Positions 11,989 through 13,664 of a stretch of 64,000 nucleotides of DNA are shown here, one piece after another. The DNA comes from Thalassospiraceae bacterium LMO-JJ14. GTDB taxonomy: Bacteria > Pseudomonadota > Alphaproteobacteria > Rhodospirillales > Casp-alpha2. Every line of letters begins with the position of its first letter. Positions within the stretch are counted from its first letter, which is position 1. Where the stretch lies: assembly GCA_021555105.2 (NCBI GenBank), contig CP134604.1, forward strand, positions 2,666,001 through 2,730,000, given 5' to 3'. The position numbers were made by a program, and so were the translations under genes. The notes under the pieces are model-generated. The model was not told where the DNA came from, ran no database searches, and saw only the letters and a list, made by a program, of their open reading frames with translations.

Positions 11989-12043
11989 TTCAGCTTTTCT
12001 ATATACTTATGGAAAAATGAATATGTTAACTGGAAAGAATAAT

Positions 12044-12406
12044 ATGCTTCCTACAACCGAACTCGGCGACGAAGCTGTTCTTGAAGAGCTTTCCGAACTG
12101 CTGAGAAAACGGCTTGAAGCCGACCCCTTGCTCGCCCCGATGTTCAAAGACGTCGACATGGACGTACTCAGCAGGAAGCATCACCTTTTTTTCACCATGC
12201 TGTTCCTCGGCAATACAGAGATCGGCGCCGAAAAACTTTTTGAAGCGCATCATCGGCTCAAGAATCATGGCGGCATTTCGGACGAACACTTCGCCGCCTT
12301 TGTTTCGCATATCCTGGCGGCCTGCCGAGAACTGAATATTTCCAAAGACAGCATAGCGCGGGTCATGAAGTCACTAAACGACGTGAAGCCTTCGATCATT
12401 CCCTGA
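12044..12406 (+). CDS. Truncated haemoglobin (bacterial globin)
   Basis: About 120 residues. The sequence aligns by eye with group 1 truncated haemoglobins: LLAPMFKDVDMDVLSRKHHLFFTMLFLG in the B-E region, the proximal His in LFEAHHRLKNHGGISDEHFAAFVSHI, and the final helix ISKDSIARVMKSLNDVKPSII. Such globins bind O2 or NO haem ligands in the cytosol. ATG 12044 is preferred because GGAAAG lies six bases upstream; ATG 12017 or 12023 would add up to nine residues. It is a single gene that ends at the shared hairpin at 12426-12447. The inverted repeat at 11961-11988 may control it. Confidence 0.75.
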   Translation: MLPTTELGDEAVLEELSELLRKRLEADPLLAPMFKDVDMDVLSRKHHLFFTMLFLGNTEIGAEKLFEAHHRLKNHGGISDEHFAAFVSHILAACRELNISKDSIARVMKSLNDVKPSIIP

Positions 12407-12455: not shown

Positions 12456-13025
12456 TTAGCGATTTAATATCCGCATTGGCAGCAGAGCTGCTATGGCAAT
12501 GAATACAATGCCAAGAACAATCCCGGTAATCTCGCCTGGCAAACTACTGAAGAAGGCCGGATAATCGGTGCCGGAGATCTCGCCGAGTGTCGCCTTGCCA
12601 CCGGCTATGCTTTCCAGAAGCCCGGTCGACTTCACCCAGGCATAACTGCCCATATAAGCCGCTGCACCGACCAGTCCTCCGATGATGAAGAACATCGCGT
12701 CCTTGCGCCCGGTCGCGGCCGCGGTCAATCCCGTTCCCGGACAAAATCCGGAAATGGCAAATCCGCCACCAAGCAATAGCCCGCCGACGAAAACGCCGAC
12801 ATAGGCGCCTTTAACCGACAGATGTCCGGCATCGACGATGCCGCTCAGCAGGCCACCGAACATCAACAGGGAACCGATACCGATTGCCAGCAGAATGGTT
12901 TTCATCAGATGCAAGTCGGTCAGGTTCAGCATGCGGATGATGTAACCGGGATTCGTCGCACCTACCCGGTCGAGTACGGCACCGAAAGCGGCGCCCAGAA
13001 CGATTGCAAGTATAAGGGTCGTCAT
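12456..13025 (-). CDS. YeeE/YedE family membrane protein, second half
   Basis: 189 residues with five or six predicted membrane helices. It carries the family cysteine motif AISGFCPGTGLTAAATGR (Cys near residue 90), which in YeeE/TsuA-type proteins lines the thiosulfate or sulfur-species pathway. Here, as in PmpB-like proteins, the double-length YeeE fold is split into two genes; the first half is immediately upstream with a three-base gap. The pair probably forms an inner-membrane sulfur-compound transporter. In BigR/SqrR systems, DUF395 (YeeE/YedE) genes are regulated by persulfide sensors, which fits the operator at 13608-13627. Confidence 0.85.
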   Translation of the reverse strand: MTTLILAIVLGAAFGAVLDRVGATNPGYIIRMLNLTDLHLMKTILLAIGIGSLLMFGGLLSGIVDAGHLSVKGAYVGVFVGGLLLGGGFAISGFCPGTGLTAAATGRKDAMFFIIGGLVGAAAYMGSYAWVKSTGLLESIAGGKATLGEISGTDYPAFFSSLPGEITGIVLGIVFIAIAALLPMRILNR

Positions 13026-13028
13026 CGG

Positions 13029-13589
13029 TCAGTTCCTCTTCCTGAACATAAGCAAAGCAATCGGAATACCGGCGGTAAAAGCTCCGGCGGTGAAGATATA
13101 GCCGGACACGGCCGTCTGCATCATCCCGCTCATCATATGACCGGACGTGCAACCGCCAGCGAGACGTGCACCGTAGAGCACGACAATCCCGGCAAGGAAC
13201 GCCGCCAGGTATCTTTTCCACGGTTCATTCCCAATGCTTTCACGCCATACCGCCGGCATTTGCCGTTCTTCGGCTGGTACACCGCCTCGCAGGAAAGCCG
13301 AAACACCGGCACCAATGACCATCGCGATCACGAACACGAAGCTGTAGTTCATCGGGTTGGCGACGTTCTTGGCATACTTGCCACCGCTTTTGTTGAGATA
13401 CGCGTTCGGGCTGGCATAACCACTCTTGGCGGTTTCGGATGTCACAACGACATCCGGGCTGACAGCATCCCACAAGATGCCGTCAAAAATTACGAACTGG
13501 GTCGATACACCGATCGGCTTGACCAGCAGCACCGCTGCGAAAAACACGATACCGAGCAGCACGCCGCCCGTTTTCCACGAAAGGATCAT
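13029..13589 (-). CDS. YeeE/YedE family membrane protein, first half
   Basis: 186 residues from ATG 13589, with TTGGAG nine bases upstream; the frame stays open to a TTG at 13604, but that would leave no ribosome site. It carries the second YeeE cysteine motif GARLAGGCTSGHMMSG (Cys near residue 152). It has four or five membrane helices and a periplasmic loop with SPDVVVTSETAKSGYASPNAY. It pairs with the next gene to make a complete YeeE/YedE unit for sulfur-species transport across the inner membrane. The operon promoter shows an FNR-type box and a SqrR/BigR-like palindrome. No sulfur dioxygenase, rhodanese or regulator gene is adjacent. Confidence 0.85.
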   Translation of the reverse strand: MILSWKTGGVLLGIVFFAAVLLVKPIGVSTQFVIFDGILWDAVSPDVVVTSETAKSGYASPNAYLNKSGGKYAKNVANPMNYSFVFVIAMVIGAGVSAFLRGGVPAEERQMPAVWRESIGNEPWKRYLAAFLAGIVVLYGARLAGGCTSGHMMSGMMQTAVSGYIFTAGAFTAGIPIALLMFRKRN

Positions 13590-13607
13590 AGGTCTGTTCT
13601 CCAAAAC

Positions 13608-13627
13608 ATATTCATTTTAATGAATAT
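13608..13627. promoter_or_regulatory. SqrR/BigR-like operator over the YeeE/YedE promoter
   Basis: ATATTCATT (13608-13616) and AATGAATAT (13619-13627) form a perfect nine-base inverted repeat with two central bases. It contains ATTC-N8-GAAT, the consensus I recall for the persulfide-sensing repressor SqrR. It overlaps the minus-strand -10 TATATT (13623-13628) and the predicted start near 13616, so bound repressor would block transcription. The match to a sulfur gene operon supports the reading. Confidence 0.6.
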
Positions 13628-13650
13628 ATTATGAGAGCAGCCTGTTAACA

Positions 13651-13664
13651 ATGATCTGGATCAA
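13651..13664 (-). promoter_or_regulatory. FNR/FixK-type box upstream of the YeeE/YedE operon
   Basis: On the minus strand TTGAT-CCAG-ATCAT differs from the TTGAT-N4-ATCAA consensus only in the last base. Its centre is exactly 32 bases from the centre of the -10 TATATT, which places it at -41.5, the class II activator position. Confidence 0.55.

Follow-up and report, generated by a model that had tools for sequence, protein, structure and literature searches.

When does Thalassospiraceae bacterium LMO-JJ14 make its half-size YeeE/YedE transporter proteins, and which regulators act on the promoter of their genes? We addressed this question in a window of 64,000 nucleotides, the whole stretch of DNA that was analysed (contig CP134604.1, positions 2,666,001 to 2,730,000), and positions below are those of the window unless a genome or locus is named. 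By profile match, two short proteins encoded on the minus strand correspond to the C- and N-terminal halves of PF04143 and thus form a PmpAB-type pair. The arrangement of PmpA and PmpB is that of a pair of half-size YeeE/YedE proteins (PMC11582611), and our pair resembles PmpAB of Serratia, where two half-size proteins likewise match both halves of YeeE. The pmpB-like gene starts 3 nt after the pmpA-like gene, and the two are therefore probably co-transcribed. A short open reading frame on the plus strand (12021-12406) is convergent with pmpB; by eye it could encode a truncated haemoglobin, and it has no Pfam or NCBIfam match. The features of the locus are as follows.

12456 to 13025, minus strand: pmpB-like half-size YeeE/YedE protein, 189 amino acids, N-terminal part of PF04143 (positions 9-110)
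13029 to 13589, minus strand: pmpA-like half-size YeeE/YedE protein, 186 amino acids, C-terminal part of PF04143 (positions 177-306)
13598 to 13602, minus strand: ribosome-binding site GGAGA, assigned by eye
13607 to 13626, no strand assigned: predicted SqrR/SoxR-type operator ATATTCATT-AA-AATGAATAT, overlapping the last part of the -10 and the start point
13616, minus strand: predicted transcription start (+1), placed from its position relative to the -10
13623 to 13628, minus strand: -10 hexamer TATATT, centre 13625.5, direct reading
13646 to 13651, minus strand: weak -35-like hexamer TTGTTA, 17 nt from the -10 and adjoining the FNR box, 9 of 12 consensus matches
13651 to 13664, minus strand: FNR-type box TTGAT-CCAG-ATCAT, centre 13657.5, predicted at -41.5, a class II activator position

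Read directly on the minus strand, the promoter has the order TTGATCCAGATCAT-(22 nt)-TATATTCATTAAAATGAATATG-TTTTGGAGAACAGACCT-ATG, the ATG of the pmpA-like gene lying at 13589. The initial annotation had described ATTC-N8-GAAT inside a nine-base perfect palindrome, and this is borne out by the letters: two 9-bp arms flank a 2-bp centre, with the core at 13610-13625. The centres of the FNR box and of the -10 are 32 bp apart, as had been claimed (13657.5 versus 13625.5). The palindrome had also been said to overlie the -10; of the -10 it covers the last four bases, not the whole hexamer, and it continues over the start point into the first bases of the transcript. Because we took the hexamer as -12 to -7, +1 falls at 13616 and the box at -41.5. 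With respect to class II promoters, the box keeps a constant distance to the -10 in 45 promoters, its second half-site here is ATCAT rather than ATCAA, and the start is a predicted one. An RNA hairpin formed by the palindrome was rejected by inference, because a centre of 2 nt would not leave room for a loop and +1 lies inside the palindrome.

We think it probable that these elements make up a promoter with two inputs for a PmpAB-like transporter pair that handles sulfur species, and that FNR-type activation and SqrR/SoxR-type repression would be combined there into an AND output. At low oxygen, an FnrL/FNR-type activator would bind the box at -41.5 and recruit RNA polymerase to a promoter without a good -35. 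When no reactive sulfane sulfur is present, a reduced SqrR/SoxR-type ArsR dimer would occupy ATTC-N8-GAAT over the -10 and the start and block the polymerase. Persulfide or polysulfide would link the two cysteines of the repressor, the repressor would leave and the transporter would be made, so that output would require low oxygen and reactive sulfur together. The two DNA elements were read directly, and their fixed geometry, their conservation, both candidate regulators and a second target are shown below; which proteins bind them, to which signals and with what logic is what we infer from sequence.

Conservation of the palindrome in relatives had been named beforehand as one of two tests on which this reading would stand or fall. 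We compared 80 named orthologous loci, which are mutually related and hence not independent, and whose record titles span Rhodospirillales, Rhodobacterales and Hyphomicrobiales. The palindrome is conserved, and its spacing to the FNR box is kept as well. A relative of the same genus (G002) and one of another genus (G009) both retain the box as TGAT-N4-RTCA, the 22-nt gap, the -10 and ATATTC-N8-GAATAT; the inner 8 bp of the operator vary among these two and the source genome. An exact ATTC-N8-GAAT lies within 150 bp of the gene in 45 of the 80 orthologues (55 sites), whereas each of the other spacers in ATTC-Nk-GAAT, with k from 0 to 16 except 8, occurs at 0-5 loci. Within the same 150 bp, the perfect ATATTC-N8-GAATAT was found in 18 of 80 (0.0 in shuffles), and versions with at most one mismatch in 28 of 80 (0.1 in shuffles). 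The FNR-type box TTGAY-N4-RTCA is present in 45 of the 80 orthologous promoters, versus 0.36 in shuffles. After alignment of these 45 on the box, the TA of the -10 falls at one fixed offset in ~70%, and across the 80 loci the distance from box start to operator start peaks at a single value (14 loci).

Could an AT-rich palindrome and box have arisen by chance? The promoters are indeed AT-rich, and single elements turned up in 0.2-0.9% of 150-bp dinucleotide shuffles of the promoter: ATTC-N8-GAAT in 0.85%, TTGAT-N4-ATCA in 0.23% and any palindrome with 9-bp arms in 0.5%. In the 3.89-Mb genome the full palindrome is single-copy, the next best place having 2 mismatches. The strict 8-bp spacer, however, is kept across Rhodospirillales, Rhodobacterales and Hyphomicrobiales, and we assign a chance origin a vanishingly small probability; for the palindrome itself, this spacer-specific conservation in the comparative data rules it out. 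The two-site layout recurs across alphaproteobacteria, which suggests that the genes are probably on only at low oxygen and with reactive sulfur.

The promoter might also work without an AND gate. Once the repressor leaves, weak FNR-independent transcription would then allow sulfide alone to induce the genes, with FNR acting as a booster. The -35-like TTGTTA, at 17-nt spacing, may permit such basal activity, and in the promoters of Nisaea we found a perfect operator but no FNR box; yet a distance from box to -10 that is fixed in 45 promoters implies that the activator is needed, and we hold this non-AND logic to be possible but unlikely and retain the AND-type promoter as our reading. The converse of the Nisaea case is seen in genus g7 (L024, L027 and L029), where an FNR-like box is kept, the SqrR-type operator is missing and a SoxR-like gene is retained; a SoxR-like gene without the operator counts against our reading. 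The two inputs thus appear separable in evolution. By eye, a YgaP-like (DUF2892-type) gene lies directly before pmpAB in g7, below the FNR-type box, and upstream of both there is a gene with a Crp/Fnr-like end.

Other variants affect the operator. The pmpAB promoters of L067, L072, L093, L094, L099, L110 and L120 carry two ATTC-N8-GAAT operators exactly 25 bp apart, and in the five double-operator loci with an FNR box the upper operator begins within the box or directly against it. This contact, found in some Rhodobacterales, suggests that the repressor could also contest binding of the activator or at the -35. L026 belongs to the same order but to another family; ~33 bp before pmpA, where the operator would stand, it has a different palindrome, ATTAGTTAAAACTAAT.

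We next consider the candidate activator. Four Crp/Fnr proteins of the source genome pass the family cut-off. One is FnrL-like and has the expected cysteines (CxxC-x7-C and a fourth in NVC) together with an E-xx-SR recognition helix, here ETVSR. It could be aligned to FNR structures from near its first cysteine, and its best NCBIfam match is FnrL, at 164 bits against a cut-off of 300. The TTGAT-N4-ATCAA half-site of FNR is shared by Dnr, NnrR and FixK-type relatives and is common to FtrB-like proteins, and the box alone is unable to separate FNR from Dnr, NnrR or FixK relatives. The box may thus be used by another member of the family, such as a Dnr/NnrR-type NO sensor, FixK or an FtrB-like protein, in which case NO or a cascade signal would be combined with sulfane sulfur. 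One Crp/Fnr protein of this genome, with an ESLSR helix and without the N-terminal cysteines, would be available for such a role, and in g7 the gene with a Crp/Fnr-like end is the immediate upstream neighbour of the operon. The presence of the four-cysteine FnrL-like protein with its ETVSR helix and its best match to FnrL, albeit below the cut-off, makes us regard a different activator as rather unlikely, and an FNR-type protein is the probable activator.

For the repressor, the initial annotation had made its reading depend on a SqrR/BigR homologue, an ArsR-family protein with two cysteines, and the source genome encodes one of 116 amino acids (G000:C1, ~2,881,190-2,881,541). Its best PDB matches are 6o8k-6o8o (E 1.5e-27; 'ArsR family' in the PDB table entry), which we take to be SqrR of Rhodobacter capsulatus, with BigR next. 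Two cysteines ~66 residues apart (ILC and LFC) align with both cysteines of SqrR and BigR. The protein misses the NCBIfam BigR equivalog cut-off (102 bits versus 155); judged by these matches, it is a predicted member of the SqrR/BigR/SoxR clade and not a BigR equivalog. Its gene lies beside sox genes, named by eye from sequence, at ~200 kb from pmpAB, and since sox genes adjoin it the protein is better called SoxR-type. The locus is no bigR operon: the repressor gene stands outside the pmpAB operon, beside the sox genes. Two-cysteine ArsR genes directly upstream of yeeE, in a bigR-like operon, are found in L118 and L119, with no ATATTC-N8-GAATAT just upstream of yeeE. Adjacency of ArsR and yeeE genes as proof of the regulator was rejected: it is seen at only 2 of 80 loci, both of them without such an operator just upstream.

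ATTC-N8-GAAT, given as the SqrR site when the locus was first described, has been published as the sequence that R. capsulatus SqrR is deduced to recognize (PMC9774250). The SqrR/BigR homologue of Escherichia coli, YgaV, represses ygaVP, and its footprint at the start includes an ATTC-N8-GAAT-like sequence (PMC9774250). Near ~60 two-cysteine SqrR/SoxR-type genes we counted 8 sites with the N8 spacer, versus 0-5 for other spacers. The motif occurs in the promoter of a two-cysteine SqrR/SoxR-type operon in three lineages (three Nisaea loci, two Rhodobacteraceae metagenome-assembled genomes and two Filomicrobium). In the Nisaea loci the repressor operon includes genes for an HbpS-like protein and a full-length YeeE protein as well, which ties repressor, motif and target types together. 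Among the orthologue genomes, the operator is present in 42 of 70 with a SqrR-like gene and in 1 of 8 without one (Fisher p = 0.02, kinship ignored); at stricter cut-offs p is 0.06-0.07, and this co-occurrence is supportive, not decisive. The soxR promoter of the source genome has no exact ATTC-N8-GAAT, a point against our reading. The sole exact site in its sox cluster, ATTCCCATTATCGAAT at L017:6251-6266, overlaps the putative start of soxW; the operator core before pmpA in G009 (L025) has the same 16 bases.

The operator may be real and bound by another repressor, which would make the signal something other than persulfide. A second ArsR protein of the wider clade is encoded (108 amino acids, one cysteine, best PDB match NolR) and could fill this role, as could a repressor of another family; the operator here has no SqrR-like gene next to it, and the rarity of ArsR genes beside yeeE among the orthologues points the same way. 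On the other hand, the sequence is the deduced SqrR site (PMC9774250) and stands before two-cysteine repressor operons in three lineages, and the linked YeeE, YgaP-like, HbpS-like and DsrE-like genes fit sulfane-sulfur handling. We consider a different repressor distinctly improbable and the SqrR/SoxR-type protein the better candidate.

Does the promoter stand alone? A whole-genome search for the FNR box combined with the operator returned just two places, the pmpAB promoter and G000:C1:1013907-1013965, which precedes a gene for a YgaP-like transmembrane protein (PF11127). The geometry of this second target is the same, with 22 nt from the box to the -10 (TATACA), 32 bp between the centres and the overlapping ATATTCAACAATATGAATAT. 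An HbpS-like gene ~650 bp from this site has its own upstream ATATTC-N8-GAATAT, and a relative of the same genus keeps the YgaP-like promoter with the HbpS-like gene beside it. A version of the operator with two mismatches, ATATACACTATAATGAATAT (L012:1501-1520), lies 44 bp upstream of a DsrE-family gene. That the same two-part promoter occurs at independent loci, before genes that are found together in other places, is good evidence for a regulon.

The initial annotation had also proposed a scan of the genome for further ATTC-N8-GAAT sites. There are 35 exact matches versus 11 in a reversed control, but most are probably not operators; few of eight further ones that we viewed lie upstream of a plausible gene start. 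Because most of the 35 are probably not operators, the regulon is unreadable from the core motif alone. A class-wide pattern scan of 385 genomes was set aside, as its matches outside the source genome came mostly from small genomes, with two control hits, and were probably for the most part due to chance; plasmid searches found nothing further. In L198, L199, L210, L212 and L213, all from Rhodobacterales, an FNR box and ATTC-N8-GAAT lie upstream of ctaD-like (cytochrome oxidase) genes and, in L213, of a cydA-like gene (cytochrome bd). We lean slightly toward a regulon, widespread in alphaproteobacteria, whose promoters (pmpAB, YgaP-like and possibly ctaD and cydA) would be subject both to FNR-type activation and to SqrR/SoxR-type repression, in some cases through two operators spaced 25 bp from each other, and in which sulfur would be imported only at low oxygen with sulfane sulfur.

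We compared this arrangement to systems that have been reported. Each component is known on its own: FNR promoters, SqrR-type operators, YeeE targets. SqrR (R. capsulatus), YgaV (E. coli) and BigR (Xylella, Agrobacterium) share ATTC-N8-GAAT over the start site, a two-cysteine repressor and YgaP-like and YeeE-type targets with our locus; here, in contrast, the repressor gene is remote from the target and beside sox, and the target promoter has a conserved FNR-type box at a predicted class II position. The class II promoters of E. coli FNR and of FnrL in Rhodobacter and Dinoroseobacter have a TTGAT-N4-ATCAA box at -41.5 and a weak -35, much as predicted here, but our promoter has a second, predicted repressor operator over the -10 and the start. 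Searching the text of the FnrL paper on R. capsulatus, we found no YeeE genes. The SoxR and sHdrR system of Hyphomicrobium denitrificans likewise has a SqrR-clade repressor encoded by the sox cluster and a YeeE-family target, soxT1A (PMC10451225, PMC12423496); unlike there, FNR-type and repressor sites are found here on one promoter, and the term FNR is absent from the main text of PMC12423496. The pmpAB genes of H. denitrificans are not thiosulfate-regulated (PMC11582611), which counts, at the level of the response alone, against a dual-input reading. In the open-access papers searched, we found no description of a promoter class that combines FNR and SqrR sites in a conserved manner.

If our reading is right, oxygen and sulfane-sulfur sensing would be wired into single promoters across alphaproteobacteria, in contrast to E. 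coli, for which overlap between the regulons of YgaV and FNR is reported to be rare (PMC9774250). It would also connect SqrR/SoxR-type repressors directly to the control of anaerobic genes; in H. denitrificans, loss of the repressors affects anaerobic respiration genes by an unexplained route (PMC10451225, PMC12423496). Finally, it would point to a physiological role for PmpAB-type transporters in sulfur uptake at low oxygen.
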